A DNA stretch of 64,000 nucleotides. It comes from Bacteroidales bacterium (lineage in GTDB: Bacteria; Bacteroidota; Bacteroidia; Bacteroidales; P3). Shown here in pieces: positions 1 to 56,929 of this stretch. Every line of letters starts with the position of its first letter. The stretch's first letter is position 1. Below the pieces are notes generated by a model. That model was not told where the DNA came from and made no database searches. It saw only the letters and a list, made by a program, of their open reading frames with translations. The stretch is taken from assembly GCA_017480145.1 (NCBI GenBank), contig JAFVBF010000076.1:1-64000 (forward strand), written 5' to 3'. A program made the position numbers and the translations under genes.

Positions 1-237
1 AGCAAGTATGGGCTGACGCGCATCGGCATCTTCGGTTCTGTGGCCCGTGGCGAACAGACTGAGGACAGCGACGTGGACGTGTGCTACGAGGGGCGTGTGC
101 CGACGCTGCTCACGCTCGACCTCATACAGACCGACTTGGAGCGGATGCTGGGCAGTCGTGTGGACTTGGTGCGAGTGCGCGACGGCATGAACAGCCTGCT
201 CAGGGAGCGCATCAGAAAGGAGGCCGTCTATGTTTGA
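1..237 (+). CDS. MntA-type nucleotidyltransferase antitoxin, 5' end outside window
   Basis: The reading frame is open from base 1, so the true start lies outside the window. The visible 78 residues carry the minimal nucleotidyltransferase signature: GS at residues 12-13 of the fragment, then ten residues, then D24-x-D26 (GSX10DXD), with ARG after GS. In the MntA/HepT family this protein AMPylates the partner HepT toxin and neutralises it. It overlaps the HepT-like gene by 8 bp, the usual arrangement of the pair. The family call is firm from motif plus partner; activity is inferred. Confidence 0.85.
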   Translation, partial: SKYGLTRIGIFGSVARGEQTEDSDVDVCYEGRVPTLLTLDLIQTDLERMLGSRVDLVRVRDGMNSLLRERIRKEAVYV

Positions 238-607
238 CCGCGAGATTGTGATAGACAGCCTGCGGAAAATCCGCATTGCCATCGAGACCATTCTGGAACG
301 TGCGGCCGTGGTAAGCGACCCAAACGAACTGCTCACCTCGCCGGGCGGTATGATGCGCCTCGATGCCATCTGCATGAATCTGATTGCGCTGGGTGAAGCA
401 GTGAAAGGGCTCGACAAGCAGACGCACGGTGAACTTCTGCCCCGCTATCCCGAAATCTACTGGAGCGGCGTGATGCGGATGCGCGACAAGATAGCCCACC
501 ACTACTTTGAGATTGACACCGACGTAGTGTTCCGAACCATACAGGAAGACGTGCCGCAAATGAAAGAGGTCATCAACAGAATGATTGCCGACATAGAAGA
601 AATATAA
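230..607 (+). CDS. HepT-like (DUF86) ribonuclease toxin
   Basis: A 125-residue, mostly helical protein of typical HepT length. It contains the HEPN RNase motif RX4HXY as R85, H90 and Y92 in RDKIAHHY. HEPN toxins of this family cleave RNA and are silenced by AMPylation on or near the motif tyrosine by the MntA partner, encoded immediately upstream with an 8-bp overlap. The motif is intact, so the module may be functional. A terminator-like hairpin follows at 672. The pair sits beside decayed genes and next to the island border, a common location for toxin-antitoxin cassettes. Confidence 0.88.
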   Translation: MFDREIVIDSLRKIRIAIETILERAAVVSDPNELLTSPGGMMRLDAICMNLIALGEAVKGLDKQTHGELLPRYPEIYWSGVMRMRDKIAHHYFEIDTDVVFRTIQEDVPQMKEVINRMIADIEEI

Positions 608-671
608 TAATGTAGAACGAAAACAAAATGACAGGATAGACATAGTTCTATTAAAAAACACATTGAAACTA

Positions 672-709
672 GGCTAATTTCGTTAAGAGATTAGCCACGT
701 TTCTTTTTT
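672..709 (+). terminator. Rho-independent terminator candidate after HepT
   Basis: GGCTAAT (672-678) pairs with ATTAGCC (690-696), with a few extra internal pairs, and a T-rich run follows at 701-709. It would end the toxin-antitoxin transcript. Confidence 0.55.
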
Positions 710-724
710 CTCGCCGATTATTCG

Positions 725-732
725 TAATTTCG
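725..732 (+). promoter_or_regulatory. Imperfect Bacteroidota -7 element upstream of the MmcQ-like gene
   Basis: TAATTTCG differs from the consensus TAnnTTTG at one base. It lies about 36 bp before the ancestral ATG at 768 and just after the preceding terminator. The mismatch may weaken it, in keeping with the broken gene downstream. Inference only. Confidence 0.3.
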
Positions 733-767
733 CAGCCGATTAGTGAAACAGATAAATCGGAATTTAC

Positions 768-1142
768 ATGAATGTAGAAGAATTCCGAGATTAATGCCTG
801 TCGCTGCCGGGCGTGACCGAAAAGATGCCGTTCCCCACCGTGAACGACCCCTATAGCCGTGATGTGCTTTGTTTCTATGCAGGCTCCAAGTGGTTCTGCT
901 ATGTGAACATCGAGGTCTTTGACCGCTGCTGCCTGAAGTCAACGCCTGAGGATGCCGAGGAACTGCGTGCCCGCTACGACGGCATCCGTCCTGCATGGCA
1001 CATGAACAAGCGCATGTGGAACGATGTCTATTTCAATCAGGACGTGCCCGACGACGTTATTTTTGGCCTCGTCCGCAACTCCTACGACCTCATCGTGGCG
1101 AAACTGACGAAACGGGAGCGGGAAAAACTGCTTCACCCATAA
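768..1142 (+). pseudogene. MmcQ/YjbR family protein with in-frame stop at codon 9
   Basis: Reading from the ATG at 768 gives MNVEEFRD, a TAA stop at 792-794, then CLSLPGVTEKMPFPTV and an open frame to 1142. The N-terminus of this family (DUF419, small double-wing DNA-binding fold) usually reads like MNxEExRxYCLSLPGVTEKMPF, so the stop replaces the expected tyrosine codon (TAT or TAC to TAA). The rest is intact, including late family features such as the WNDV segment. A shortened product could start at GTG 813 but would lack the first helix. Most likely a recent nonsense pseudogene; a sequencing error is the alternative. Confidence 0.75.
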
Positions 1143-1149
1143 TATTTTT

Positions 1150-1551
1150 ATGCAGATACCCACCAACCACATCACCGACTACGCCGAGGGCGGCATCAGC
1201 CTGAAGAGCCTGACGATGGGCGGAAAGGCAAGCAGTCTCACGGGGCTGCATCGCGATGATTACTACCTTTTCTGTCTGCTCACACGTGGCGAACTACGTC
1301 TCTGCGTGGACTTCAGCGAACAAGTCGTCCATGCCCACGAAATAGGCTGCATACTGCCGGGGCAGGTACATCAGTTCGTCGATGCCCGCGACACGGAGGG
1401 CTGGCTGCTGTGTGTTGACGGCGTACACATCGGCGAGGCCAACCGACAGACGATGCAGCGGTTTGCATTCTCTCGGCGGGTACTGCCCGCCCTTACGGCA
1501 TCATATATATATAGATGGACGGCATTTATCCTCCAATTCGTCATAAAGTGA
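1150..1551 (+). pseudogene. Truncated AraC-family regulator (N-terminal cupin only)
   Basis: The ORF begins 8 bp after the MmcQ-like gene. Residues from about 35 to 110 resemble the AraC-type ligand-binding cupin of Bacteroidales regulators: HRDDYYLF near 35, a PGQVHQF motif near 73 and a GWLLCVD strand. A full regulator is about 290 residues with two C-terminal helix-turn-helix motifs. Here the frame ends at 133, and the last 15-20 residues are antisense to the opposing small ORF at 1501-1644. The gene appears to have lost its DNA-binding half at a rearrangement near 1480-1503. Confidence 0.65.
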
Positions 1552-1644
1552 ATTATATTCTTTCTCATTCTGCCGATTGTCGGAGGCAAATAGGCCACCA
1601 AAGGCTGGCATAGTGTCAAAATGAATGTCTTCTTGCTCCTGCAT
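1501..1644 (-). pseudogene. 47-residue ORF at the end of the island operon, probably a truncated ninth gene
   Basis: A minus-strand ATG at 1644 opens 32 bp after the protease gene and reads 47 codons to a TGA at 1501. The peptide is acidic and soluble-looking (begins MQEQEDIHFDTMPAFGG, later a YNSLYDELEDK segment). Its last residues fall in an AT repeat where the opposing AraC-like frame is also cut. It therefore looks like the start of a longer protein belonging to the operon and severed at the island border. It could also be a complete small protein. I do not recognise the family. Confidence 0.4.
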
Positions 1645-1675
1645 ATTGCTCTATTAAGTATCTGGAATGATGATA

Positions 1676-2464
1676 TTATATGCTCATTTGAATTTTAGCG
1701 GACAGCAATAACTTGATATAGGGTTTCACCGCATCAATACTCCAGGCATAATTAAGGTTGGCCTGTGAGCCGTCGGCAAACGAGCCAGAGGTAATGCCCA
1801 CGACCTCGCCATATTCATTGATGAGGGCACCGCCACTGCTACCATGATCGATGAGAGCACTAACCTGCATAAGGTAATCGGCTCGCCACTGGGAAACCTC
1901 ACCTGAGGAGAATGTGTTTTCAAGACCACGCGGGCTTCCGATGGCATAGACCTTCTCACCGATTTTCGGTTTGTCAGTGGCTATAGGAATATAGTTGGTA
2001 TTCTCACAATCCACTCGGAAAAGGATAAAGTCTTCGTCTTCACTCCTTGCAATAACCTCAGTAACTTTGTATGCTACGTCGCTGTCAACTAATTTAATCT
2101 GCTCTAAGCCTATACCCGTACCTTTGAACACATGATAATTGCTCACTGCAAGGCCATCGTTGTCAATAAAGAACCCAGAGCCTTGGTAAGCATTTAAACC
2201 ATCGGATGTAAATACCATGAACACTGCACTTCCGTATCGATCGAAAATTTGAGACCCCTCCAATTTGTCACTGGATCTTTTATTGACAATCTTACTCTTT
2301 CGAGAAGAGGCACGTGCTGACTTTCCATTAGGACGGTCGACCATGGCGGTACCAGGTCGCTCCCAGTCTCGCCGATGTCCCGATTTATGTGCGCACTGGA
2401 CCATTAGGAATGTTGCCAAGCAGAGCAGAATAGCAACATATTTAGATGATCTTTTTTTCTGCAT
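1676..2464 (-). CDS. Trypsin-like serine protease lipoprotein, last intact gene of the operon
   Basis: I chose the ATG at 2464 (MQKK), giving 262 residues with a basic start, a hydrophobic stretch and a possible lipobox Cys at 24 (preceded by Gln, atypical). After a basic linker comes a trypsin_2-type domain with an intact triad: H111 in SNYHVF, D145 in EDFILF, and S210 in GSSGGA. This is the HtrA/DegP-type chymotrypsin fold but without a PDZ domain. It overlaps the OmpA-like gene by 23 bp, so it is translated with the operon. It probably acts outside the cytoplasmic membrane, as an effector or to mature a partner; the substrate is unknown. Confidence 0.85.
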   Translation of the reverse strand: MQKKRSSKYVAILLCLATFLMVQCAHKSGHRRDWERPGTAMVDRPNGKSARASSRKSKIVNKRSSDKLEGSQIFDRYGSAVFMVFTSDGLNAYQGSGFFIDNDGLAVSNYHVFKGTGIGLEQIKLVDSDVAYKVTEVIARSEDEDFILFRVDCENTNYIPIATDKPKIGEKVYAIGSPRGLENTFSSGEVSQWRADYLMQVSALIDHGSSGGALINEYGEVVGITSGSFADGSQANLNYAWSIDAVKPYIKLLLSAKIQMSI

Positions 2465-3137
2465 TCTCAGTATCATCAATAATGTTTTTCGGAATAATAT
2501 GTATAACAAAACGTTGGTTGTATTTTTCTTTTATTCCTCGCTCTCGCATCAGAGTTCCATCCAACTGTTTGAAACGATTGGTGTTTTCTCCGCCTGTGTA
2601 GCCAAAATTATATCTACCATCACCACTTCCTGCTATCTGAATTTCACAGTTAGCCCCAAAATCAATATGACAAATATCTTTCCAGAACTTCATCAATGTA
2701 AGGGCACGCTGAAAACTCCAATCGTAGTTTGCATCGGTCAGCATCGTAGAATTTCGAGAAGCCTGACCTTCGATAATGAGCAAGTACTGGTTTCCATCAT
2801 TCCTGTCAAAAAAATCTTTTATTTCAGTTCCAGCCTGATGGAGACGTGCTGTATCAGCATGTAGATCAGTCAACTTATATTTAGTGGCTTCAAAGAAGCA
2901 ATTTACGTTAAGTACATATTTTTTATACTCTGCCCTATAAGCGAAGTTCTTTGATTCACCCAACTCCCGGGTTGATGCTTCTACCTTCCTTATCTCTTCA
3001 AGTTGTTTCTCTGTTGCCTCCATGCGTTTGTGCAGAAGGACAATAACGAGAACGAAGAGAGTAAGCATGATGAAGAATAGGCTTGTCATCAAGTCCGAGT
3101 AACTGGTCCAGAAAAATGATTCTTTCTTCTCTGCCAT
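2442..3137 (-). CDS. MotB/ZorB-like ion-channel stator subunit with OmpA-like domain
   Basis: 231 residues. The N-terminus has the MotB/ExbD/ZorB pattern: a short cytoplasmic start, SYSDLMTSLFF with D15 at the membrane entry (the ion-carrying Asp of the family), and a single helix at about 15-36. A coiled linker (about 37-75) leads to an OmpA-like domain at about 105-215 with IIEGQASR, the RALTLMKFW helix and an N-x-R-F-VIHI ending, matching the peptidoglycan-binding family. It directly follows the MotA-like gene (24-bp gap), the standard stator pair. Likely role: couples ion flow to movement and anchors the complex to the cell wall. Confidence 0.82.
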   Translation of the reverse strand: MAEKKESFFWTSYSDLMTSLFFIMLTLFVLVIVLLHKRMEATEKQLEEIRKVEASTRELGESKNFAYRAEYKKYVLNVNCFFEATKYKLTDLHADTARLHQAGTEIKDFFDRNDGNQYLLIIEGQASRNSTMLTDANYDWSFQRALTLMKFWKDICHIDFGANCEIQIAGSGDGRYNFGYTGGENTNRFKQLDGTLMRERGIKEKYNQRFVIHIIPKNIIDDTENAEKKII

Positions 3138-3161
3138 ACCTTCTTTTTCAGGACTTAATTG

Positions 3162-4796
3162 TTAGAAATTTGGGGAGGGGTCAGTGGTACTGGAGCTGTT
3201 GTGGACAGGCTGTTGGACAAGGTTCTTCAGCACACTATCATTCATTTGTTCCACCACCAAAGTGGAATCCACCCTCTCTGAGACATTGCCAACAGCACCT
3301 CCTAAAGGCGTATTGTTAGAAGAAAACCAAATATTGTAGACTGTGTTTGAAATACATGCTATAGCCATAAGAATCACAGATACCACAATCGTCCACTTCA
3401 ACCATTCTGGCATCATGGGAGGAACCAAATAAGGCGAGGCCCCTCCTCTTGAGGATACCGTAGTAAGTTCTTTTGCAGTACGTGTCATCGTTCCGCTCAC
3501 CTGTGAAGCAAGTGAATTGTTAGAACGTTCCATACGGTCAATCAATTTGTCTAATTTTCCTGGTATTCCCGCAATTTCTGCCAGTTGCTTTTGCAGCAGA
3601 GGAATTTGGTTAAGTTCCGCCCCAAATTGTGCCCTAAGTTCACCATTCAATCTTTCAAAAGATTCTCTCTCGTCTGCTATGATTCTTTTAAATTCTGCTG
3701 CTTGTTGAACAAGTGTAGAATTAAGTTCGCTTGTATTCGAGCTTGCCGTTTCTTTTAGAGTCCTTAATGCATTTCGCAATGCCACGTCAACATCAGCCGA
3801 GTCTTTAGCGATTTCCGCTTTGTGACGCATAAAGAACTGTTGAATTTCCTCTAATACATGTAATCGATTTTTTTCTTGCTCAAATTGAGTAGTGAAGGTA
3901 TGAATGGCATCGGTGTAGCCGTGAATGCCATCCAGATATTCATTAAACTGTTCGAGTTTATCGGTACATTCCTTTAACTCTTCAAGTACACGAACATTGG
4001 CCTTTGCCATTTTCATCACATCCATATCGTGTACGGCTTTGATAATATCACCCTGAATGCGATATGATTCATTCACTTCGCGCAGTGCACCACGGAGTGA
4101 GGTGGTGTTTTCAGCAAAAGTATTATTAAACTTGTTGAGGTTCTTCACGAGGCGATTAAGCGCATCAGAAGTATCAGAGGGAAGTTCTGGAAGTAACCTG
4201 GCCTGAAGCCATGCAAGGAAAGTATTCTTGCCAGATTCACCTTGGAGTTTATACCGTTTAAACAAAAGAGAAGCAATCGTGGTGAGCAAGATACCCATAA
4301 TACTGGCAAGCATTGCCCACGCCACACCTGACAAGAGATCGTTTACTCCTTCTGCAGCGATGCCAAAGTTTCCTGATCCTGAAGACAAAAGCGCAGTAAT
4401 ACTTCCTGTAGTAAGTAGAGAACTAAGACCGACTATTACGCCAGCCATAGTTCCTGCAAGACCACAATACAACGGTGTCGGGGTCAGTGTGTTGATGTCA
4501 TTTTCAACAGAATCGCAGTGTCGGTCAACGGCATCTTTCAGAAGCGAAAAGTCAATAACAGAACCCGAGTTGTTTTCAAGATACTTGTTGATGGAATCTT
4601 TAATCGACTCGAACACATTATTGCCTTGTCCATAAATACCCGAAACAAAATTCGTCTCAGGGTTATGGGCGATTTGCCAGGAACTTACTTCGGAAAAAAT
4701 CTTTTTGTACTCTATCATTCGAAGCACATTCTTCACAAAGAAGAATATCTGTAGTGCGATTATTAGCGCGACTATGCAAGGGACTAATAGTGACAT
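3162..4796 (-). CDS. MotA/TolQ/ZorA-like channel protein with long cytoplasmic coiled tail
   Basis: 544 residues. Membrane helices are visible at about 3-24, 108-130 (Gly-rich, LYCGLAGTMAGVIVGL) and 154-180, the MotA/TolQ/ExbB core. A long charged helical region at about 190-450 follows, then another helix at about 463-485 and a Ser/Thr/Asn-rich tail of about 58 residues. Ordinary ExbB/TolQ proteins are about 230 residues; the long tail resembles ZorA of Zorya defence systems. The extra C-terminal membrane helix is unusual. The tail could signal to the cytoplasmic tubulin-like and actin-like partners. Paired with the OmpA-like gene downstream and 1 bp from the lipoprotein gene upstream. Confidence 0.8.
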   Translation of the reverse strand: MSLLVPCIVALIIALQIFFFVKNVLRMIEYKKIFSEVSSWQIAHNPETNFVSGIYGQGNNVFESIKDSINKYLENNSGSVIDFSLLKDAVDRHCDSVENDINTLTPTPLYCGLAGTMAGVIVGLSSLLTTGSITALLSSGSGNFGIAAEGVNDLLSGVAWAMLASIMGILLTTIASLLFKRYKLQGESGKNTFLAWLQARLLPELPSDTSDALNRLVKNLNKFNNTFAENTTSLRGALREVNESYRIQGDIIKAVHDMDVMKMAKANVRVLEELKECTDKLEQFNEYLDGIHGYTDAIHTFTTQFEQEKNRLHVLEEIQQFFMRHKAEIAKDSADVDVALRNALRTLKETASSNTSELNSTLVQQAAEFKRIIADERESFERLNGELRAQFGAELNQIPLLQKQLAEIAGIPGKLDKLIDRMERSNNSLASQVSGTMTRTAKELTTVSSRGGASPYLVPPMMPEWLKWTIVVSVILMAIACISNTVYNIWFSSNNTPLGGAVGNVSERVDSTLVVEQMNDSVLKNLVQQPVHNSSSTTDPSPNF

Positions 4797-4797
4797 T

Positions 4798-5616
4798 TTA
4801 CTTTTTCAATATAATTTTAAGAGGTTTTGTGACTTCCCACGTATCTTTGCTAATCTTCACACAAACACCTTCCTCTTCAAGCTGGAAACCTGATGCATCT
4901 TTTATGGAAGCACCTTTATATTCTACCTTTTTCTGCCAATCATTGCGCGACTTAATTTTGTCTAAAGATATAATATCGAATTTTCCTTCAGATTCACTGG
5001 TGAAGGTAATTTTGAATACGCAAAAGTCTTGATTAGAATCATAAATAGTCGTAAAAAAATTATCCGAATCAACTTTTGCATATCCGACTTTTGGATAGAC
5101 AGGTGCTCCTACAGATGGGGGCGTTTCTTGGCGAGATGGCACTGATTGTGTTACAGGATTATTTATTTTATGGATTTCTTCGGTGACTTTCTTCATTTCG
5201 CTTTCCAAGTTGCGTAAACGAGTATCGAACTTAGACATATCGAAAGAACCTGAATGTGATACTCTATTACCATGTTGTGAAGATAATGAATCGCCCCTGT
5301 CTTTTTTTATCACTTTAGGTTTAAAACGAGATATGAAAAAGACAATCAAACCCAAAACAGAAGCCCCAATAAAAATGTATGCCCACGCACTTGGGGAACT
5401 CTCCAAATCTGCAACTTTTTTTTTCAAATCTGCAATTTCAGCCTTGGATGAGTTTATCTCTGCTACAAGTGTATCAACTTTTTTCGAAAGTTCTGACATC
5501 GGAGCCTTCTGCTCCACATTTTTTTGTTTTTCTATTGAAGATTCATCCTTCTTGCAGGAACTACAAGAAGATAAGACTAAAATGGCAGCGAATACGATGA
5601 GACAATATCTTTTCAT
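4798..5616 (-). CDS. Lipoprotein with coiled coil and a second membrane helix, operon subunit
   Basis: 272 residues, family not recognised. It begins with a lipoprotein signal (lipobox ending in C18, VLSSC), then a Lys/Glu-rich coiled coil (about 40-73), a clear membrane helix at about 77-98, a second coiled segment (about 125-150), a Pro-rich linker and a beta-rich C-terminal domain (about 175-272). A lipid anchor plus a membrane span is odd: it would tether the first 60 residues outside the inner membrane while the C-terminal domain lies in the cytoplasm. Only 4 bp separate it from the actin-like gene upstream and 1 bp from the MotA-like gene downstream, suggesting a link between ATPase and channel. 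Confidence 0.7.
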   Translation of the reverse strand: MKRYCLIVFAAILVLSSCSSCKKDESSIEKQKNVEQKAPMSELSKKVDTLVAEINSSKAEIADLKKKVADLESSPSAWAYIFIGASVLGLIVFFISRFKPKVIKKDRGDSLSSQHGNRVSHSGSFDMSKFDTRLRNLESEMKKVTEEIHKINNPVTQSVPSRQETPPSVGAPVYPKVGYAKVDSDNFFTTIYDSNQDFCVFKITFTSESEGKFDIISLDKIKSRNDWQKKVEYKGASIKDASGFQLEEEGVCVKISKDTWEVTKPLKIILKK

Positions 5617-5620
5617 ATGC

Positions 5621-8600
5621 TTAATTATCTAAGAAATACTCCTGTATTTTGCTTGAAAGAGACTGAAGGCCCCCCTTTATGGGGTAAAACGTAATTGCGT
5701 CCTCAATAAGATTGTCCTTATTACCAGACTCTTTAACAGAGAGTTCAATACCTTTATCAAGGTAAGTTTCCAAGTCCTTTGTGCATTCTTCTTTAGCAAT
5801 CTGCAAAGTGTCATTATCGACGCCGAAGTTATTGTCTAAGTTGAATGCAGACGGCATTTCTATAAGAGCAAATCTAAAGAAGTCTTCAACAGACTTTACG
5901 ATATCTGCTTTATGAGCATCAGAAATGGAAGCGTAAGTGTCATTAGCCCCAACCAACTTGCCAGACGAGTCACGGAGGACCAACGTTTCCGGACTTTCAT
6001 CGTCAGCTTCTGCCGCAATTAAGCCACCCTTGCAAGTTGATTCCTTTGGATTGGATCCTTGCTCCAATCCAAGTAAATCAAGAGCAGAGCCATAGTCTGA
6101 TTCCAAAACTTTCTCGAAGATGATTTTGGTGTATTTGCCAAGAATTTTCGAGTCTGATGAAATGATGCTAATTATCTTGCTACCATTACCGCTAAATGCT
6201 ATATGACGAGGAGCCTTCAATCCTTTTGCCTTTACAATTTGAGCAATGTGATAAATGATGGCAGTATAGAAAATAATAAACACCAACTTAAACTTCGTGT
6301 CGTTTTGAAGTATCTTGTTGAAATCAATATTATTTCTAGCAAGTTCTTTGGTTTCCGAATTGTCTTTCAGGGAGAAAAGGAACGATGCCATATTCGCAGG
6401 ATGCCCAAGATTGCTATTAAAGATATTAACAAGTTCAATAAGTTCTGGCTTCGACTGAAGAAGACTAAGGATATCATTTTTGAACCAGTCAACAATCCCA
6501 TTATTAGGATTGATATCTGAGAAGGAGTCCTCAAAGAGAGAATTTACAGCAAACTTAAATGAAGTAATATACTCTACTTTGCCGTTTGTAGAGAAGGCAA
6601 TATCGGTAGTACCGCCACCAATATCCACATTAACAAGATTCGTTGCCGTAGCATATCTGCGGAAATAGAATTGTATTGGAGCAACTGACTCAGAAATATT
6701 TTTTGTTGAGCCATCACGATTAAACAGTTCCGAGTATAAGTCGTTCCATGCCATTCGAAGTTGAGACAGGCGACGTGGTGACATACTGTTCGGATAAAAC
6801 CACGTAACTTTCGTCCGAGCAAGGTTCCCGTTATTTGCAATGACCTTGTTGCGGATAATCATCATGATATTACGAATGTATGCTTGCATCGCAGACTGTG
6901 CGTTCGGCTTACTGCTCCATTTGATATTTACAATATGTTCCGCATTGTATGCGATGCCTATTCTTTTATTGTAGGTAATATCGAAGTTCATCAAGCCGAA
7001 TGGCCTTAACCGCTCTGTCCAATCAGTAGATTTTGCATAAGACAAAGCGGTTCTTGTCGGGAAAGAGAAATCTGAATCTCCTCCTACCACAGCAGGGATG
7101 AAATCACGAACCATCAAATCGTTTTCATCAATTAAGTCTAAAGGAATGAGTTTCCCTTGAATTTCACGATAGGACTGTACAAAGAAAGTACTGAGGATTG
7201 CTTCCGAATCTTTGTAGTTGAAAGCGTCAGAACTATTGTTGTCAGACTTCTTAAACTCAATATGTGTGTTTGAAGTTCCCATGTCAACAGCAAATTCATA
7301 ATCTTCCAAACTCTGATGAACAAGGAAATTGGGAATAATGACGTTGCTCGCTCCACTTTTGTTTGAAACACTAATAAAGTCAAAATTGCTGTATCGGATG
7401 GTGTATGTCTCTGCTTTGAAGTCAAACAAGCCCCTCTCTTTATTTCGGCAATCAACAGGAATATCGCGTATTATTTCACCTTCACGATAAAAATCAAAAC
7501 GGAACTGGTTAGAGAAGGTACTAACACAGGAAACTGTATATATGGCATCCTCTTCATTTTGGAATTTCATACTAGGCATTACCAAGCCTGTGAAATCAAA
7601 AGATGTCATTCCACCAGAATTCTGTGTTTCAGAAACGTCAGGCTGACGCTGTGCGTAGTAGATTCGTTGGTACTCAATGTAGTCAATATTCCCATTGCCT
7701 GTGATAGGTATTCGAATTACAACATTGACAGACCCGCCAGCGATGGTTTCCATCTCAAATGCAGATTTTCCATCGGGCATGGTGGAATTAAGTGTTTCTA
7801 CAGAAAAAAAATTGAAGTAGAGCGGCTTAATTGGAAGAAGGAACGATGCCTTCTGTTCTACGTCCTTGATATTGCCATCAAAGAAATACTTCTTGTTCAA
7901 AGTGTGAGGCACTTTTACAATCGTATCTTCAAGGAAGTCGCTGATAGTCAGATATGCAAAAATTGAACCTTCATAAGGAAGAATTCGGCGCTCAATGTCT
8001 GCAACATTCGGCTTGTAGGGTGCTTTGTTAGTGTTGCCCCAGGTCCCATTCGCATACAGAAGCCCAGCGTATTTGTTCCCTGCTTCAACAGGAAGAACCA
8101 GTGGCCTCACACCTGTCACCGTACGTTCAGGTTGTATTGTAAACTCATTCTTAATATAGCCGTTGGATTTCTTCTTAAACAAAACCGTTCCCAGCACCTC
8201 AACCCGGTTACTCTGTTGATGAGACTGCACATCAATCAGAGAGAAGTCCTTAGCGGATGCTGGCGTAATCTCATTCAACTTGTTCTTGACAAGTTGATCC
8301 GTAATTGCTTTAAATGTCAAGTTCAGATAATTTTCAATCTCCGGGAAAAGATTAGAAAAATCGGGCATCGTCTTGCGAAGTGTCCACCAGGCTTTAATGT
8401 AGTCAAAATCTCTTTTGAAGAGAGGGGCATAATCGCCATCAAATGGGCGGTCGTTGTTTGCAAAAAAAATGTCTTGTATATATTCAAGACTGTTAGCCCC
8501 GCTGAAGAAAATCGTAGCTGGTGAAGTGGCACCAATAACATTTAATTCATCCGGTCCATTTGTATAGTTCAACAAATAGATATTCTTCAGTTGGTCGAAG

Positions 8601-9043
8601 TTGTAAGTTTTTGCATCGGAAACGAGATACTTCTGCAAGGCATCTGCCACATAGTAGTGACTCGCATTCTGGTCATTCTTCAAGGCATCAATCATCACGG
8701 ACGGTTCCCATGTTATGACCTCTATCTTGTCCTTGAATTTATCAATGTTAAAGAATATTTCGCCAACGTCCAATGAATCTGACACCATCTTATGAAAAAT
8801 CGTATTACCTTCCAACTCTCTAATATTACGGGTGGCTCTACGACACACTTCCTTAAAAGCCGTTTTCACAAGGTCAATTCTTGCAAATGGCGAAGGAATG
8901 GATGTAATTTCATTCTTAGCACTTGCTCCATCGGGATCCTGGATAGTATCCCTGGCATTGGAGTTATATGGAAAAGCAGGGTTTTCGTTCCAGCCCTGAA
9001 ATGTGGCAGCACCCTCTCTATATAATCTAAAAACCTTTGACAT
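5621..9043 (-). CDS. Giant actin/Hsp70-fold ATPase
   Basis: 1140 residues. The C-terminal half has the actin-superfamily nucleotide site: phosphate-1 motif AVDMGTSNTHIEF near residue 585, phosphate-2 motif NVDIGGGTTDIAF near 804, and an adenosine motif HIAFSGNGSKI near 946. The first ~580 residues are a beta-rich region I cannot assign. Typical DnaK, FtsA or ParM proteins are 320-640 residues, so the N-terminal extension is a distinctive addition. No signal peptide or membrane helix, so it is probably cytoplasmic. It lies between the tubulin-like gene (5-bp gap) and the coiled-coil lipoprotein (4-bp gap). Likely an ATP-dependent scaffold or switch; polymerisation is untested. Confidence 0.82.
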   Translation of the reverse strand: MSKVFRLYREGAATFQGWNENPAFPYNSNARDTIQDPDGASAKNEITSIPSPFARIDLVKTAFKEVCRRATRNIRELEGNTIFHKMVSDSLDVGEIFFNIDKFKDKIEVITWEPSVMIDALKNDQNASHYYVADALQKYLVSDAKTYNFDQLKNIYLLNYTNGPDELNVIGATSPATIFFSGANSLEYIQDIFFANNDRPFDGDYAPLFKRDFDYIKAWWTLRKTMPDFSNLFPEIENYLNLTFKAITDQLVKNKLNEITPASAKDFSLIDVQSHQQSNRVEVLGTVLFKKKSNGYIKNEFTIQPERTVTGVRPLVLPVEAGNKYAGLLYANGTWGNTNKAPYKPNVADIERRILPYEGSIFAYLTISDFLEDTIVKVPHTLNKKYFFDGNIKDVEQKASFLLPIKPLYFNFFSVETLNSTMPDGKSAFEMETIAGGSVNVVIRIPITGNGNIDYIEYQRIYYAQRQPDVSETQNSGGMTSFDFTGLVMPSMKFQNEEDAIYTVSCVSTFSNQFRFDFYREGEIIRDIPVDCRNKERGLFDFKAETYTIRYSNFDFISVSNKSGASNVIIPNFLVHQSLEDYEFAVDMGTSNTHIEFKKSDNNSSDAFNYKDSEAILSTFFVQSYREIQGKLIPLDLIDENDLMVRDFIPAVVGGDSDFSFPTRTALSYAKSTDWTERLRPFGLMNFDITYNKRIGIAYNAEHIVNIKWSSKPNAQSAMQAYIRNIMMIIRNKVIANNGNLARTKVTWFYPNSMSPRRLSQLRMAWNDLYSELFNRDGSTKNISESVAPIQFYFRRYATATNLVNVDIGGGTTDIAFSTNGKVEYITSFKFAVNSLFEDSFSDINPNNGIVDWFKNDILSLLQSKPELIELVNIFNSNLGHPANMASFLFSLKDNSETKELARNNIDFNKILQNDTKFKLVFIIFYTAIIYHIAQIVKAKGLKAPRHIAFSGNGSKIISIISSDSKILGKYTKIIFEKVLESDYGSALDLLGLEQGSNPKESTCKGGLIAAEADDESPETLVLRDSSGKLVGANDTYASISDAHKADIVKSVEDFFRFALIEMPSAFNLDNNFGVDNDTLQIAKEECTKDLETYLDKGIELSVKESGNKDNLIEDAITFYPIKGGLQSLSSKIQEYFLDN

Positions 9044-9048
9044 AATGG

Positions 9049-10443
9049 TTATGCATTAAATTTCTCGTTAAACAACCTAGACATTGCCAGGAAGAACATT
9101 TCAAGGAATTTGTCATTATCTTCTTTGCTATGACACTTCTTAACAGCAGAGTTCAAACGGGAAGTCACCAAATCGTAATCAGATTTAAGGCGAATGATTT
9201 TTTTAGGTTTTACGCCCGTCACAACTTCAAAGGGTTTATCCTTTGAATTAAGGTTGAAAAGATCTAATGAGCGTTTATTTCTCTTCATTTCACCTAACCA
9301 CTCAATGAATAAACCCGTCAGGGTTTGAAGTTCAGCCATAAACGAACTACCATATAGACCATTAAAATTATCATAATTGGCATTAAAATTCTTAGAAGAA
9401 TAATAGTCAAATTTGTTGTTCAAACAATTTGCCATCATCACGAATTTGGTAAGATGCTCGAAAATCAAACGCTTTTGCTGGTCGTAGAAAGAATCAAACG
9501 TTACCGAACCAGTAAGGTCTTTCAGTCCGAGTTCCTTATTCGAGGTATTTGTATGCGGTTTGTTACTGAAATCGACTATGGCAGTTGCGGCAAGGAACTC
9601 TATAAGATGTGCGTCGTTTTGCTGTGCCGAGCCACCTTCATGATTTTCGTACGTATTTGTAACATCATCCGCAAGGAAATAAAGCGCATCTATCGAACCA
9701 TTCTTGCTAATATTGTTCTCATAATAAGCCAATGCAGATTTTGTTTTTGAAATGAAAGTGGAGGAATCGATTTCACTTCCATCATCATTTTTTAACTTGA
9801 AATAAGGGAGTATTGTAATGGCACCTATTTCTGCATGATTGATAAGGTCATTATTCGGAAAGTTTGTGCCAGTACGAAGTGTTTTCAATAACAGGGGGAA
9901 ACCACTTGCTCCAGTTCCACCAAAAATTGAACTAATGATAAAAATTTTGTCGCCTGCCTCAAAGTTGCTGGAGAAGTCTTTAAAATCATCAGAATCCACT
10001 ATTTGATTGAGCACAATACTTCCTATATTGGGGTTACCCTTGAAACCGACATCCATTGACGATCCGAGATTCTTTTCAGAAAAAAGCATTTTCATCATTG
10101 CTTGTGATGATTTGCCCATGGACGGCAAGTCTATAAACTGCTGGAAAGTTTTGTCACCTGTATTATTAATCCGAAGGGTATAGTTGACCAAAATCTGAGA
10201 TAACTCTTTCCTAAAGAATGTAGACACATTGTCCTTTGTGAACGATAGTGAAGAGTGGATAGCCCTGTAGTTATTCATGAGGGCAACTGCTCTGGTCAAG
10301 TCTGCATTGGAAGCGTCTGGGTCAATGATAATAGGAACTATTTCATCTGCTCCGATGTTTACACCTGCAGCCAGCATCATTGTGAAAGAACGCAGGACAC
10401 GTGTCCCTGTCCCTCCTATTCCGAAAACATATAGTTTAGCCAT
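9049..10443 (-). CDS. Tubulin/FtsZ-like GTPase (bacterial tubulin-like family)
   Basis: 464 residues. The N-terminus reads MAKLYVFGIGGTGTRV, a Rossmann-type nucleotide site, and residues 175-181 give GGTGASG inside IISSIFGGTGASGFPLL, the tubulin signature loop (GGGTG(S/T)G in FtsZ). The spacing between the two fits the tubulin GTPase fold. It lacks the variable C-terminal FtsZ tail and is not in a cell-division cluster, so it is not the housekeeping FtsZ. It fits the divergent FtsZ-like groups proposed for membrane remodelling. It probably binds GTP in the cytoplasm and may assemble under the membrane with the actin-like partner encoded 5 bp downstream. Confidence 0.8.
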   Translation of the reverse strand: MAKLYVFGIGGTGTRVLRSFTMMLAAGVNIGADEIVPIIIDPDASNADLTRAVALMNNYRAIHSSLSFTKDNVSTFFRKELSQILVNYTLRINNTGDKTFQQFIDLPSMGKSSQAMMKMLFSEKNLGSSMDVGFKGNPNIGSIVLNQIVDSDDFKDFSSNFEAGDKIFIISSIFGGTGASGFPLLLKTLRTGTNFPNNDLINHAEIGAITILPYFKLKNDDGSEIDSSTFISKTKSALAYYENNISKNGSIDALYFLADDVTNTYENHEGGSAQQNDAHLIEFLAATAIVDFSNKPHTNTSNKELGLKDLTGSVTFDSFYDQQKRLIFEHLTKFVMMANCLNNKFDYYSSKNFNANYDNFNGLYGSSFMAELQTLTGLFIEWLGEMKRNKRSLDLFNLNSKDKPFEVVTGVKPKKIIRLKSDYDLVTSRLNSAVKKCHSKEDNDKFLEMFFLAMSRLFNEKFNA

Positions 10444-10461
10444 GACAAAGAATTTTATAAG

Positions 10462-10920
10462 TTAAAAAGGGGCACGTGAGCAGTTGGTGCTCCACCATTT
10501 GATGATATACGAGATTACAATGAAGGCAATAATGGCATCAATCATATTGGTGACACCAAATGCCAAGATGTCATCGCGATAGATGGGTAGGCCAACCATT
10601 TTACCTGTAACGGCGTCTTTTTTTACCATAAGGCCAGCGTAATAGTCCCTCTGAACCCACTGCCAACCAACGATAAAGTTAATTACAGCATTTACGCCTA
10701 AAAAAATGAGCCACCCCCACCAGTTATTAAGGCGAGGATGATTGATGATGTAATAATAGCATACGGCTACAACTAACGAGATAGACAATAGGGATAAGCC
10801 AATGCCAATAAACATGTTGCTTAATTGTGCTGGCGACGATTGCCCCCAAAGATAGTCTGCCAACTCTATTCCGAAGAAATCTTCGAGCCAGCAATAGATG
10901 CTACCAAAAAATTCACCCAT
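10462..10920 (-). CDS. Small three-helix membrane protein, operon subunit
   Basis: 152 residues, family not recognised. It has a Trp/Phe-rich amphipathic start, then hydrophobic helices at about 34-58, 67-88 and 117-142, with a charged loop (QRDYYAGLMVKKD) between the second and third. It starts 11 bp after the VWA-like gene and ends 18 bp before the tubulin-like gene, so it is part of the operon. A membrane anchor or adaptor for the tubulin-like protein is a reasonable guess only. Confidence 0.65.
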   Translation of the reverse strand: MGEFFGSIYCWLEDFFGIELADYLWGQSSPAQLSNMFIGIGLSLLSISLVVAVCYYYIINHPRLNNWWGWLIFLGVNAVINFIVGWQWVQRDYYAGLMVKKDAVTGKMVGLPIYRDDILAFGVTNMIDAIIAFIVISYIIKWWSTNCSRAPF

Positions 10921-10931
10921 GACAGTATTGT

Positions 10932-12119
10932 TTATTTGTTTTTTAATTCAAAAGAAACGGAACCATATGTAGTAGAGTTTCTATAGGCTTCTGCCACACC
11001 CTTAATCTGAGCCATTAACCCTGTTGTTTTATCAAGATTTTCTTTGACATTTTGCCCCGTCGTATCATCAGAATTAGATACCCATGCGGCCAAATATGGG
11101 TACGAGAATGAAATTGTTTCAGATTTCAAGGTCTTGGGATTGGATATTTCCAATGTGATAATATGGCTATACGGACTTGCAATATCAGAAATCTCTTCAG
11201 CCGATTTCACCATGACCTGTTGTGGATTGACAGATTTGTATTGCGCAATATTCTTATACATATTACGGCTTTGTAACGATCCCCGCAGATTTACTAACAG
11301 TTCAACACTTATTTTCCCAGAATGGTTTGTTACATAAGTACTTCTGCTTATATCGAAAGGGATTTTCTGTGGAGCAGCATAAGCACAATATTCCTTTATG
11401 CCGCCAATAATATTCTCAACCGGGACCTTTTGGTTGAATTCAGCCAAATATTTCTGGTCACCAATTATCCAAATATAGTAAGGCCGTTTTACACCCGTCA
11501 AAAATTCTTTGTTCTGTCCACAAAACCATTTGCCTTCAAATTTGGAGTCAAGTTTTATTATCTCCACTCCCAGATTGGGATTTTCTAACAGAGCATCAGT
11601 AAATGTTTCTCTAATGGAAATCTGGCAGTTTCCCAAATCATCTTTTGCATTCTTAGTAATGTCAAGGATACAGTCTGAGACAAATACCGAAACTGTTTGT
11701 TTTCCATTATTCCTCACTATTGTTTCTAAAAGTTGACTAAGGTCTGTAGTTTCTCGGTTTCCACCAGCATTGGCAAAAGATTGTGGAGTAAGATTTTTGA
11801 TATATGCTTTTAAATCTCCATTGAAAGGGATAACCTTTGAATTTATGTAGTATAGTGAGCATGAGTTAGTCAGTCGTTTCAAATCGCTTACATAATCAAA
11901 AACGGCATCTTTTAGATTTGAACCGGCACACATATAAGCATTCATGCTCTTAGAGTTTTCTACATAGACTTTTAGCTCAATGGAGTCATTAGTCGCCATT
12001 GGAGACGATACAGAGTCCCATGCCAGCCTAATTTTGCTACCTCCTCCAACGCAAGTAGAGAGGACTGCAATGGTGATGATTATGCAGATAACAATTGGAA
12101 TGATGAGTTTTTTATTCAT
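10932..12119 (-). CDS. VWA-like lipoprotein, first gene of the phase-variable operon
   Basis: 395 residues. N-terminal hydrophobic segment 5-22 ends at Cys23 (LSTC), a probable lipoprotein signal although Thr before the Cys is not classical. From about 47 the pattern is VWA-like: a strand leading to E54-x-S56-x-S58 (variant of the DxSxS metal site), a threonine near T124/T125 in ETTDLSQLL, and D149 after VSVFVSD. This would give a metal-ion adhesion (MIDAS) fold with the first Asp changed to Glu. The C-terminal half is beta-rich. As first gene it lies about 65 bp past the left inverted repeat, so its leader would be supplied by the switch. Likely ligand or partner sensing at the cell envelope. 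Confidence 0.7.
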   Translation of the reverse strand: MNKKLIIPIVICIIITIAVLSTCVGGGSKIRLAWDSVSSPMATNDSIELKVYVENSKSMNAYMCAGSNLKDAVFDYVSDLKRLTNSCSLYYINSKVIPFNGDLKAYIKNLTPQSFANAGGNRETTDLSQLLETIVRNNGKQTVSVFVSDCILDITKNAKDDLGNCQISIRETFTDALLENPNLGVEIIKLDSKFEGKWFCGQNKEFLTGVKRPYYIWIIGDQKYLAEFNQKVPVENIIGGIKEYCAYAAPQKIPFDISRSTYVTNHSGKISVELLVNLRGSLQSRNMYKNIAQYKSVNPQQVMVKSAEEISDIASPYSHIITLEISNPKTLKSETISFSYPYLAAWVSNSDDTTGQNVKENLDKTTGLMAQIKGVAEAYRNSTTYGSVSFELKNK

Positions 12120-12184
12120 AAGTTAAAAACCTTATTTTCAAACACAAAATGCGTTGACAGCATCTGTCAAGCAATATTCCTCCG

Positions 12185-12203
12185 TCTCTTCCCAAGAGAC
12201 GGA
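12185..12203 (+). repeat. Left copy of a perfect 19-bp inverted repeat (IRL)
   Basis: TCTCTTCCCAAGAGACGGA reads identically, reverse-complemented, at 12356-12374. This copy is itself inside a full dyad: TCCGTCTCTT, CCC, AAGAGACGGA (12181-12203), the form expected for a tyrosine-recombinase core with two binding arms. Confidence 0.85.
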
Positions 12204-12355
12204 GAAGTGGGATAAGCAATTGTCTATTCGCTATTTGGGAACCACACTAACTTCAAAATACTAAACAGAATCAAAAAAAATGACTTTTCTAAAACCACTG
12301 TTATTAAATAACAAAGCGGTTTTTGCAAAAAAATGTGCATCTTTGCAACTCCATA
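12204..12355. promoter_or_regulatory. Putative 152-bp invertible promoter segment
   Basis: The segment is bounded by perfect 19-bp inverted repeats, lies directly upstream of the eight-gene operon, and is followed by a tyrosine recombinase gene. It is AT-rich, has no ORF, and holds one good promoter-like element at its right end. This matches the layout of invertible promoters that control surface loci in Bacteroides, where nearby tyrosine recombinases flip short promoter segments. Inversion itself cannot be seen in one sequence. Confidence 0.75.
12338..12345 (+). promoter_or_regulatory. -7 promoter element inside the invertible segment, facing away from the operon
   Basis: CATCTTTG followed by CA in ATGTGCATCTTTGCAAC is one base from TAnnTTTG and has the same context as other likely promoters in this window (for example TATCTTTGCA before pyrG). 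The -33 region is weak. In the orientation given it fires rightward, antisense to the recombinase. After inversion it would fire leftward through IRL, with a start site about 85-90 nt before the operon's first ATG. Confidence 0.55.
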
Positions 12356-12374
12356 TCCGTCTCTTGGGAAGAGA
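12356..12374 (-). repeat. Right copy of the 19-bp inverted repeat (IRR)
   Basis: TCCGTCTCTTGGGAAGAGA on the plus strand is the exact reverse complement of the left copy at 12185-12203. The central CCC/GGG shows the copies are inverted, not direct. Its right edge overlaps the hairpin at the end of the recombinase gene. Confidence 0.85.
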
Positions 12375-12404
12375 TTGAGAAATTTGCTAAACAAATCTCA
12401 ATCT
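12372..12404 (-). terminator. Hairpin at the end of the recombinase gene
   Basis: AGATTGAG plus ATTTG (12372-12386, with a two-base bulge) pairs with CAAAT plus CTCAATCT (12392-12404) around a 5-base loop. It covers the recombinase stop codon and reaches IRR. There is no clear T-run, so it may be a weak terminator, or a structure insulating the operon from recombinase transcription. Confidence 0.4.
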
Positions 12405-13596
12405 ATAACAATCCCAGAATCATCTTGTTTGCCTTGTCGACCACCGATGTTTCCAATGATGCGAGGTAGATTTGTGTCGTGGATTCAGTGACGTGGCCCA
12501 TACCCTCACTGATAACCGACAAAGGAATATTCTTTGCCTTTGCTGCACTTGCCCAAGAATGACGAGCCACATACATGGTCAGCGGCCGTTGGAGTTTCAG
12601 CACCGCTGAAAGTTCTTTTAAATGGTAGTTTACCAAGTGAAGGGCATTGTCGTATTGCTTTCGCTCGTTACCTGCCTCTTTGATAATAGGGAGTAGATAG
12701 CCAGTCCTGTTTTCTGGGTACTTGGCGACAATCTCCTCCATGCACTTCTCCCACTTGATGGTTAGCTGCTGGCCTGTCTTTCTTCTCCGGTAGGCAAGGA
12801 TGCCATTTTTCAAGTCCGACTTTCTGAGGTATGCCATATCAACAAAGGACATGCCTCGGGTATAGAAACTGAACATGAACATATCTCGGGCAAAAACCAA
12901 TGTGGGCTTCATGGATAGGTCCAGTTCCTTCAAGGCCTTGATAGACTTGATAGGTATAGCCCGTTTCATGGTTTTATCAATTCCAGTATAGACGTGGCGG
13001 AAGGGATTGTTCTGCGGAGTCAGGCCTTTCTCCACGGCACGATTATATACTGCCCTGAGATTACGCATGTAGAACGAAATGGTGTTCATGCTTACTCCTC
13101 GGGCTTTCAGATGGACTTCGTAGAGACGCATGAGGTCGGAACTGATGCCGTCAAGCGGTAGATCCTGCCCTTCTCGGAATGACCTGAAACTTTTGAGTTT
13201 GGCCGTATAGGTTTCGGAGGTGCGGTCTTTGCCCAACTGTTTCAGCTGCGCTATGACGCCTTGCATAAAGGTAAAGAGGGAGGATGCTCGTGTCTGCTTG
13301 TAGAACATCGTAATCACATCGTCTGCCGTGAACAGGCGATGTTCCGTTTCTAACGAGCGGACAACCTTTTCCAGACGAGCCATGTCCCATAACAGTCGCT
13401 CCTGAATGCCAAGCAGGAGGCTGGAACGATTGCTGTTTATGACAATGCTCTCGGACTCTGCATCCCATTCTTCTGAGAAGACCTTGTAATCAGTATTCAA
13501 CTGCCGGACCACCCGATTATGGATGATTTGGAAATAAAGCCCTCCCTCTTTGCCATCCACAGTTGATGGCCTGAACTTTATCTTTATTGATGTCAT
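12403..13596 (-). CDS. Tyrosine site-specific recombinase, probable invertase of the adjacent switch
   Basis: 397 residues, the length of Bacteroidales phage-integrase-family recombinases. An N-terminal arm-type DNA-binding region (1-90) and a SAM-like core-binding domain (about 105-195) precede the catalytic domain, which has R247 (TRGMSF), K273 in the beta-hairpin (RRKTG), R345 in YVARHSW (Tyr replaces the usual His), H368 in GMGH and the nucleophile Y377 (TQIYL). All catalytic residues are present. Its 3' end is 29 bp from IRR, and it is co-directional with the operon. Local tyrosine recombinases commonly invert neighbouring promoters in Bacteroides; mobility of the whole island is an alternative role. 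Confidence 0.9.
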   Translation of the reverse strand: MTSIKIKFRPSTVDGKEGGLYFQIIHNRVVRQLNTDYKVFSEEWDAESESIVINSNRSSLLLGIQERLLWDMARLEKVVRSLETEHRLFTADDVITMFYKQTRASSLFTFMQGVIAQLKQLGKDRTSETYTAKLKSFRSFREGQDLPLDGISSDLMRLYEVHLKARGVSMNTISFYMRNLRAVYNRAVEKGLTPQNNPFRHVYTGIDKTMKRAIPIKSIKALKELDLSMKPTLVFARDMFMFSFYTRGMSFVDMAYLRKSDLKNGILAYRRRKTGQQLTIKWEKCMEEIVAKYPENRTGYLLPIIKEAGNERKQYDNALHLVNYHLKELSAVLKLQRPLTMYVARHSWASAAKAKNIPLSVISEGMGHVTESTTQIYLASLETSVVDKANKMILGLL

Positions 13597-16505: not shown

Positions 16506-16612
16506 GATATGATTTTTAAGGTTAATAAATATTATCCAAAATTCAACCAAACCTCTCAAAACAACCTCTAATACAAACACTTGAGGCATCCGAGAGACAT
16601 TTGCATATTGCA

Positions 16613-16620
16613 CAAAATTA
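16613..16620 (-). promoter_or_regulatory. Promoter -7 element of aconitase
   Basis: TAATTTTG on the minus strand is a perfect TAnnTTTG, about 108 bp before the chosen ATG; a T-rich -33 region lies about 22 bp upstream. Confidence 0.65.
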
Positions 16621-16784
16621 CGATTTTTAATTAATATGCTCTAAAAAGTTTGTCCCAAGAGAAAGTGCATCTGGTTCGGGGGGTGTTTCACCTCTTATGA
16701 AAGCCAACGGACACTGCAACTCCAACCTTGGCTTCAAAAAATTTAGTTTTTTCATTCAGAACGCTTTTTATAAAAAATAAATGA

Positions 16785-16792
16785 TAAATTTG
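16785..16792 (+). promoter_or_regulatory. Promoter -7 element of isocitrate dehydrogenase
   Basis: TAAATTTG followed by CAG is a perfect -7 box, with a TTTTT stretch at 16764-16769 at the -33 distance. The leader to the ATG at 16892 is about 90 nt. Confidence 0.65.
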
Positions 16793-16891
16793 CAGATGCG
16801 CAATATCTCTGAGACACTTAGCAAAAACCTGTGTTTCAGCCCCATATGGCGCAAGAATAATCAGAATCACATCTAATCACAAATCAAAATC

Positions 16892-18103: not shown

Positions 18104-18127
18104 GCCTGAAACTAAACGCACAATAAG

Positions 18128-18168
18128 AAGAAAGAGGCACACCTGCATGATGTGCCTCTTTCTTTTAT
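18128..18168 (+). terminator. Terminator after isocitrate dehydrogenase
   Basis: AAGAAAGAGGCACA (18128-18141) pairs with TGTGCCTCTTTCTT (18151-18164), loop of 9, then T-rich sequence. Confidence 0.85.
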
Positions 18169-18407
18169 CATAGGCCTCACCGCTATCTGCTTATCCCCCA
18201 CCCCATTGCAGCAGAACCCCACGCCAATCTGCCTCATTAGAAAACAGACACAGAGACACAATGTCTGTGACAAACAATAAACAGACGACGAATGCGTTTT
18301 TAAATAGTCATCATGTAGGGCCGACCGCAGCGTGACCGCCGGCCAATATCCCTAAAGCAAGGAATCCCGATGCAAACACACGCTATTATTGCTGTATTGC
18401 TTGGATT
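18169..18407. other. Intergenic stretch before pabA
   Basis: Nothing convincing: no ORF, no tRNA-like fold and no clear -7 box near the pabA start. A GC-rich patch (18318-18345) has GGCCGACCG and CGCCGGCC halves that could form a weak hairpin. Confidence 0.3.

Positions 18408-55279: not shown

Positions 55280-56929
<1,650 letters not shown>

Follow-up and report, generated by a model that had tools for sequence, protein, structure and literature searches.

A conserved Bacteroidota gene cassette combining a ZorAB-like motor with tubulin-like and actin-fold proteins: a putative phase-variable anti-phage system with exchangeable effectors

Zorya defence is reported to depend on wall binding, the tail and ion flow (PMC11890865). 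For the conflict systems built on DO-GTPase and GAP1-N2 proteins, a tubulin theme has been given for firmicutes and actinobacteria, in a text that does not contain the term 'MotA' (Kaur et al. 2020, PMC7159879). In TolQ-linked systems a transmembrane helix serves as tether for the vWA protein, and the accessible part of the description mentions no tubulin or actin-fold partner (PMC12204202). Here we describe a cassette of eight genes (g1 to g8) in a 64,000 nt stretch of the Bacteroidales contig JAFVBF010000076.1 (the window, meaning the whole stretch analysed). It is predicted to encode a motor pair resembling ZorAB together with a tubulin-like protein, an actin-fold protein, a VWA-like lipoprotein and a protease. 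The author of an earlier note, made from the sequence alone, knew of no described system with this set. This agrees with our search of titles and opening abstracts, in a literature without bioRxiv and with few subscription journals, which returned no system of motor, tubulin and ASKHA (actin/Hsp70-fold) proteins.

We read the cassette, with a probability of roughly 0.55, as a phase-variable system against phages: a predicted motor of the ZorAB type and a tubulin/ASKHA pair would trigger an exchangeable periplasmic lipoprotein protease, joined by a nuclease in some relatives. Among the roles considered in the earlier note, phase-variable phage defence is the one favoured by the near relatives of the adjacent recombinase, the swapped effectors and the predicted kinship to ZorB. 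The note had placed eight closely spaced minus-strand genes at 1676–12119, and a check of the open reading frames in the window returned all of them at these coordinates:

g1, 10932–12119, minus strand: VWA-like lipoprotein, 395 residues (ExSxSM and SD motif, structure model)
g2, 10462–10920, minus strand: small membrane protein, 152 residues, three hydrophobic segments (judged by eye)
g3, 9049–10443, minus strand: tubulin/FtsZ-like GTPase, 464 residues (sub-cutoff Pfam matches, GGTG)
g4, 5621–9043, minus strand: predicted ASKHA ATPase, 1140 residues (model, Foldseek, conserved Asp)
g5, 4798–5616, minus strand: protein with lipobox, coiled coil, one transmembrane segment and C-terminal domain, 272 residues (from sequence)
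g6, 3162–4796, minus strand: MotA/ZorA-like channel subunit with long coiled coil, 544 residues (PADLOC ZorA2)
g7, 2442–3137, minus strand: ZorB-like motor subunit with one transmembrane helix and OmpA-like domain, 231 residues (PADLOC ZorB1)
g8, 1676–2509, minus strand: trypsin-like serine protease with lipoprotein leader, in the swapped effector slot (Trypsin_2)

From g1 to g8 the intergenic gaps are 11, 18, 5, 4, 1 and 24 bp, and the single overlap (68 bp) lies between g7 and g8; the frame of g8 was called from a TTG, and a later start is likely. When the eight proteins were scanned, g8 was the only one above the Pfam cut-off. The region is AT-richer than its neighbours, as had been noticed before, with a GC content of 0.37–0.43 across 2001–13000 versus 0.46–0.54 in its immediate flanks (2 kb to the left, 4 kb to the right).

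The predicted motor pair is akin to ZorB and, weakly, to ZorA, with the key Asp and residues of the peptidoglycan-binding type kept. PADLOC assigned g7 to ZorB1 (3.2e-11), and its best PDB matches were all MotB-type chains (8vvn, 3.3e-12; 8qyd, 1e-7; 8vvi, 1.9e-4), with 6ykp MotB at 0.013. The chain 8qyd belongs to a ZorAB entry, and the chains of 8vvn and 8vvi are presumably ZorB. Asp15 of g7 is present in 15 of 16 rows of one alignment and invariant across the 15 rows of another, and Arg144 and Arg209 are conserved. A predicted pore-helix Asp and an OmpA-type peptidoglycan-binding domain are what characterizes ZorB, and the description of g7 as a MotB/ZorB-like OmpA protein holds. The partner g6 matched ZorA2 in PADLOC (7.4e-6, best stretch 259–388), and G, T and S residues are conserved in its membrane part; its profile gave coiled-coil noise against the PDB, with ZorA at 0.0057 over the coiled-coil part. 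Proteins of the ZorC, ZorD, ZorE and type III Zorya families had no PADLOC match among nine proteins scanned at E values up to 1. Plain Zorya was ruled out, as no ZorC/D/E-type partner matched.

The assignment of g3 to the tubulin/FtsZ-like proteins, also made in the earlier note, is supported by a GGTG motif and Glu282, each found in 31 of 31 alignment rows, and by matches to Tubulin_2 (5.3e-5) and Tubulin (3.4e-4), both under the Pfam cut-off. The best PDB match of the tubulin-family alignment was a tubulin/FtsZ GTPase (0.02). By its glycine-rich GTP-binding motif g3 is thus a predicted member of this superfamily, and filament formation is putative. For g4 the Pfam scan gave matches to Ppx, EutA, FtsA and MreB only, all of them sub-cutoff, and the sequence search of the PDB gave no match (and no useful one for g3 and g6). 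Its structure model, with a mean predicted local distance difference test score (pLDDT) of 83.9, matched MreB and Hsp70 structures in Foldseek (best E 6.6e-8, probability 1.00), and Asp587, Asp807 and Asp814 are kept in 30 of 30 alignment rows. The protein consists of an N-terminal region of about 580 residues followed by the ATPase domain. The modelled actin/Hsp70-type fold with phosphate and adenosine motifs makes g4 a probable ASKHA member, as its earlier description as a 1140-residue actin/Hsp70-fold ATPase had it. Judged by sequence, both g3 and g4 carry nucleotide-binding motifs.

Of the membrane-associated proteins, g1 has a lipobox, an ExSxSM motif and an SD motif, the consensus of the VWA metal ion-dependent adhesion site being DxSxS, and the model gives moderate support for a VWA fold. 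No family match was obtained for g1 in Pfam, PADLOC or the other profile scans; the VWA-like label draws on motif and model. No Pfam family was above the cut-off for g2. The sequence of g5 suggests a periplasmic coiled coil, a transmembrane segment and a cytoplasmic end, and the protein evolves fast, with 38, 36 and 34% identity to its counterparts in loci L003, L004 and L006 versus 73–90% for g4 and g6. In another locus, L040, four g5-like genes follow a single motor-free core in the first models (2389–9520), an arrangement resembling duplication of g5.

The eight genes form a cassette that is conserved and apparently mobile. A first scan of genome contigs yielded four loci with collinear genes. 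Matches to g3 were found in 25 of the 190 genomes of the family (17 of them reach 1e-13 or better, the other 8 are short and weak), in 13 of 395 phylum genomes and in 22 of 395 class genomes, the last searched with an alignment; these sets overlap, and the genome of the window is counted each time. We read 46 loci with iterated models. In all 32 that hold the four core genes, VWA, transmembrane protein, tubulin and ASKHA protein lie on one strand and in the same order, with a g2-like gene at the same position each time; the other 14 belong to a remote branch, are cut or broken, or miss a recognisable core gene, and one locus (L104) has a tubulin gene and no recognised ASKHA gene. MotA and MotB both follow the core in 21 of the 46, counting L066 with its broken genes. 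The earlier note had held that homologues found only scattered would speak against a system; they cluster, and a chance neighbourhood is ruled out by the kept order and by DNA homology that stops at the cassette ends. All eight genes are present in the cultured type strain Prevotella jejuni DSM 26989 (L005; 24–59% identity per gene), which makes the idea testable in a cultured organism.

A tubulin tree was built by a quick method from the window and 44 of the 46 loci, L047 and L066 being too short. All 45 rows together require at least 5 changes in motor presence; without eight loci that end early or are without clear layout, 37 rows remain and the number is 3. For the trypsin/aspartyl protease state, at least 4 changes are needed. 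In the remote branch, tubulin and ASKHA protein are retained and paired with DO-GTPase2/GAP1-N2 (L042, L043, L045) or with TerD (L044, L072, L106), as called by Pfam for L042 and L044 and by our own models for L043, L045, L072 and L106. Possibly, these remote pairs link the DO-GTPase/GAP1 or TerD conflict systems to the cassette.

The last position of the cassette is an exchangeable effector slot in which unrelated hydrolases are swapped, two of them sharing a leader in near relatives. Pfam matched g8 to Trypsin_2 (6.9e-23), in line with the trypsin-like protease listed before, and a lipoprotein leader can be added to that description. At the 21 motor loci, MotB is followed by a trypsin in 3, by a retropepsin-like aspartyl protease in 8 and by a DUF4357 protein with Endonuclease_NS in 3, while no effector was recognised in 7. 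Endonuclease_NS occurs in 7 of the 21 (the three DUF4357 loci and four aspartyl protease loci). The motor had been described as Zorya-like without the Zorya nuclease and helicase; this is true as far as ZorC, ZorD and ZorE are concerned, but these seven relatives do carry a nuclease, of another family. The trypsin calls for L003, L005 and L033 were made by our own models or similarity to g8, not by Pfam, and so were the effector calls for L039, L040, L066, L097, L098, L101 and L075, with E values from 1e-24 down. Motor-free relatives have an aspartyl protease (L039, L040, L065, L097), a trypsin (L041) or an L,D-transpeptidase (L038, L068).

Every one of the 17 protease and nuclease N-termini viewed opens with a lipobox or a signal-like stretch, as was seen for the nucleases in 6 of 6 cases. 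For comparison of the leaders, the stretch after the lipobox Cys was scored against 2000 shuffles. Between the trypsin leaders (window, L003, L005) and the aspartyl protease leaders (L004, L006), 0–4 of 2000 shuffles scored as high in six pairs, and in the near clade of the window 16–19 of 2000 did so when aspartyl protease or trypsin leaders were compared to nuclease leaders (three pairs). Since no likeness was seen in three pairs taken from L033, L034 and L035 (460–1993 of 2000), the shared leader is a trait of this near clade. DNA homology of L003 to the window extends from 12119, the start codon of g1, to 1713 in g8, with none beyond these points within the window's first 20 kb. For L004 and L006 it ends at 2476, 34 bases before the MotB stop, and a different effector follows, although the tubulins are 85% identical. 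Full-length trypsin g8 was matched in L003 and L005 only among the four collinear loci.

Between g1 and a recombinase gene lie two opposed 28-nt repeats, 152 nt apart and 89% complementary, with the following features:

12176–12203, unstranded: operon-proximal recombination site with TCTCTTCCCAAGAGA core (inverted repeat I1)
12204–12355, unstranded: predicted invertible promoter segment, 152 nt, between the opposed repeats (layout also beside five recombinase relatives)
12338–12346, plus strand: -7-like box CATCTTTGC of the Bacteroidota type, directed away from the operon in the assembly, predicted OFF
12356–12383, unstranded: recombinase-proximal recombination site with TCTCTTGGGAAGAGA core (inverted repeat, core pattern)
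12403–13596, minus strand: tyrosine recombinase, predicted segment flipper (Phage_int_SAM_5 1.8e-19, Phage_integrase 9.2e-7)

The last of these is the recombinase that the earlier note had seen at one border of the region. In phase-variable promoters of this type, opposed sites next to a recombinase gene enclose the promoter, and the window appears to have this layout, with a predicted promoter. With one mismatch allowed, the window contains the core TCTCTTNNNAAGAGA 3 times versus 0.11 expected, and the spacers of the sites are reverse-complementary (CCC/GGG), as required for inversion. The third site, an exact one, lies inside g4 at 8409–8423. We take the consensus of the -7 box to be TAnnTTTG, from which CATCTTTGC departs at one base; a -33/-7 promoter pair was not found. 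Because the -7-like box faces away from the operon, the assembled state is predicted to be OFF. A -7-like box points away from the genes in all five segments read (window, L123, L124, L125, L135), with one genome per species in these orientation data. Some inverted repeat is present upstream of g1 in six other loci. L004 and L006 share one of another type, with AATGCTGAAAGCCC arms about 200–230 bases apart, which might be a different switch.

A search of 190 family genomes with the recombinase at 1e-60 gave 15 other matches in 12 other genomes; all 15 were checked for sites, and neighbour genes were listed for eight. Five relatives have at least 60% identity: L108/L123 (83%), L117/L135 (65% over part), L109/L124 (63%), L110/L125 (62%) and L120/L126 (60%). 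Paired TCTCTTNNNAAGAGA sites with reverse-complementary spacers (0–2 mismatches) lie beside all five. Behind the sites, PADLOC matches were found to HKD+Snf2 (2.4e-51) and a type IIG piece in L123, to a type II restriction-modification (RM) system in L124 and to a type ISP/IIG RM system in L125. The gene pair behind the sites in L135 is 86 and 87% identical to the type II RM pair of L124. In L126 (about 506–4433) a Zorya II system (ZorA2 2.9e-236, ZorB2 2.6e-80, ZorE2 7.9e-122) and a GNAT-like gene follow, which suggests that this Zorya II may be phase-variable. Apparently, the cassette was brought under the control of a switch that is attached to defence genes in the closest relatives of its recombinase. 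Phage defence is probable because the closest relatives of the predicted switch precede known or candidate phage-defence genes.

Copies of the cassette were also found on viral contigs. The 103.6-kb contig L074 has a terminase at 55356–56060, a motor cassette with nuclease at about 62855–73896 and an integrase at 102993–103520; both L074 and L075 carry the motor cassette with a DUF4357 protein and Endonuclease_NS. In the L075 record a terminase lies near the cassette and no integrase was found. Near the L073 copy lies a match to a tail protein; terminase and integrase were both absent from this record. From these fragments we infer that the viral-contig copies are part of prophages. No match to g3 was obtained in 50,697 phage records, and the plasmid search gave 6 remote records. 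In an empty-site comparison, aconitase was found in 3 other genomes of 59 of the genus, and the two loci compared showed no empty site. Downstream of the cassette in L034, which has an aspartyl protease and a nuclease, a gene for a 1128-residue GajB/UvrD-like helicase is located (15579–18962). To the left of the operon in the window lie a HepT-like ribonuclease gene (230–607; PF01934, 3.2e-18) and short open reading frames; this is the side on which the earlier note had placed broken genes.

If the cassette acts in defence, the promoter segment would flip, and as it faces away here, the majority of the sampled cells would be OFF. When ON, g7 may be held at the cell wall while the coiled coil of g6 may extend to the cytoplasmic side, which is the arrangement reported for Zorya. 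Ion flow and rotation would then be set off by damage to the wall or by the entry of DNA. Beneath the membrane, g3 and g4 could build a scaffold resembling FtsZ and FtsA, which would collect or gate the motors where entry occurs; g2 and g5 would link it to the membrane, and on the periplasmic side g1 would present or restrain the effector. The protease might cut phage entry proteins or free a partner nuclease, and the nuclease would destroy DNA crossing the periplasm. The weakest steps are the role of g3 and g4 and the return of the signal to the periplasm, for which g5 and g1 are the likely links. The patchy distribution over the family, phylum and class genomes was counted as support for defence.

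Several observations weigh against this reading. The likeness of g6 to ZorA is weak and lies for the most part in the coiled coil. The cytoskeletal role of g3 and g4 is drawn by analogy only, no effector was recognised at seven motor loci, and the L033 trypsin leader does not share with the L034 and L035 aspartyl protease leaders (1158 and 1993 of 2000 shuffles). A TCTCTT-type site pair was found in none of the 34 other loci with g1, in the 126–800 bases upstream (three stretches were shorter than 200 bases). The cassette is therefore not generally under the switch, and a family that is phase-variable as a whole is ruled out, the TCTCTT-type sites being present in the window copy only. The ten recombinase relatives below 60% identity do not support a link to defence. 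Exact paired sites precede an exopolysaccharide-like locus in L114/L134 (42%), and variant sites precede genes without assigned function in L113/L133 (43%) and lipoprotein and housekeeping-like genes in L121/L136 (56%), the genes in these three cases being judged by their first residues. No such sites were present in L112, L115, L116 and L122 (the latter 59% identical over half its length, in a locus that ends early), no clear site pair in L118 and L119, and L111 could not be read. Of 10 neighbours of other copies, 3 gave PADLOC matches (one to a GajB-like helicase, one to mad6/PD-T4-6 and a partial one of the CARF type), and none was a complete system. Finally, the YkuD L,D-transpeptidases in motor-free L038 and L068 also fit wall remodelling.

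Wall remodelling is the first of three rival explanations: an FtsZ/FtsA-like pair would steer a wall-anchored motor and periplasmic enzymes in an envelope-maintenance machine that is switched for surface adaptation. Besides these transpeptidases, the lipoprotein nature of the effectors fits this. It gains slightly in weight from the recombinase relative at 42% identity, whose exact sites stand before an exopolysaccharide-like locus; the 56% relative precedes a lipoprotein gene. We nevertheless consider it unlikely, given nucleases in 7 of 21 motor loci, the patchy distribution, effectors swapped between cores with 85% identical tubulins, and a near recombinase clade that precedes defence genes in 5 of 5 cases. 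The same machine could instead serve a mobile element, as cargo by which phages or other elements keep out competing phages or plasmids. Such superinfection exclusion is suggested by the motor cassette between terminase and integrase on L074, by the terminase near a second copy and by the cassette-like DNA ends. It appears quite improbable, since 43 of the 46 loci come from genome assemblies (any prophages included) and none of the 50,697 phage records matches g3. An antibacterial weapon or secretion device, in which the motor drives export or surface delivery of protease or nuclease, would account for lipoprotein effectors with catalytic domains, for the swapped, toxin-like terminal genes, and for an unassigned 218-residue gene between protease and nuclease in L036 as candidate immunity gene. 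No secretion-channel family was above the cut-off in the eight genes, however, and we regard this explanation as very improbable.

Beyond the reading as a phase-variable anti-phage system, a bolder proposal, which we hold only tentatively and consider somewhat more doubtful than even, is that the cassette represents a new class of immune machine. A chassis of cytoskeleton-like pair and VWA lipoprotein would use a ZorAB-type motor as sensor, interchangeable lipoprotein proteases and nucleases would hit phage DNA while still in the periplasm, ahead of its arrival in the cytoplasm, and cassettes and effectors would be traded between hosts and prophages. In the window the chassis would have been captured by a switch module that one recombinase lineage carries between defence systems, Zorya included. 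If this is true, immunity would make use of tubulin- and actin-like proteins together with a proton-driven motor, and the destruction of phage DNA would begin in the periplasm through swappable lipoprotein enzymes. Likewise, one phase-switch lineage in Bacteroidota would have been shuffled among RM systems, Zorya and the cassette, which could explain how costly defences are kept mostly off. The tubulin/ASKHA chassis may also be a marker for many undescribed systems, as 4189 proteins match g3 among 8000 scored.

Among described systems, those with DO-GTPase and GAP1-N2 resemble the cassette in that proteins of the tubulin family occur along with vWA proteins in neighbourhoods that are mobile and vary in their effectors. 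Both components are predicted here, the tubulin by sub-cutoff matches and the VWA protein by motif and model. Unlike these systems, the window and its clade are without DO-GTPase or GAP1 match; neither protein had a Pfam match in the operon (for g5, among the best 25 of 40 weak matches), and membership was therefore ruled out. TerD-linked clusters are approached through the remote L044, L072 and L106, which pair tubulin and ASKHA protein with TerD, whereas the eight window genes have no TerD match. As in the TolQ-linked systems, a vWA protein adjoins a proton-driven 5:2-type envelope motor, in the part of the source available (PMC12204202), but g1 carries a lipobox and the motor here includes a ZorB-like subunit of its own. 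The tubulin-like GTPase gene beside an actin-fold ATPase gene recalls FtsZ/FtsA, from which the cassette differs by remote (sub-cutoff) sequences and by the large extra N-terminal region of g4; its polymerisation is putative. With Zorya it shares a ZorB-like subunit with pore Asp and OmpA-type wall-binding residues, a MotA/ZorA-like subunit with long coiled coil, and an effector slot at the 3′ side, and the Zorya II of L126 sits behind the same type of switch. Unlike Zorya, the cassette adds a VWA lipoprotein, a three-transmembrane protein and tubulin-like and ASKHA proteins, its effectors are lipoproteins, and in 25 of 46 loci, some of which are truncated where the contig ends, no motor pair was recognised. 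On the best reading of these sequences, the cassette is related to Zorya and to the tubulin/vWA DO-GTPase systems, and would stand beside them rather than as a member of either.

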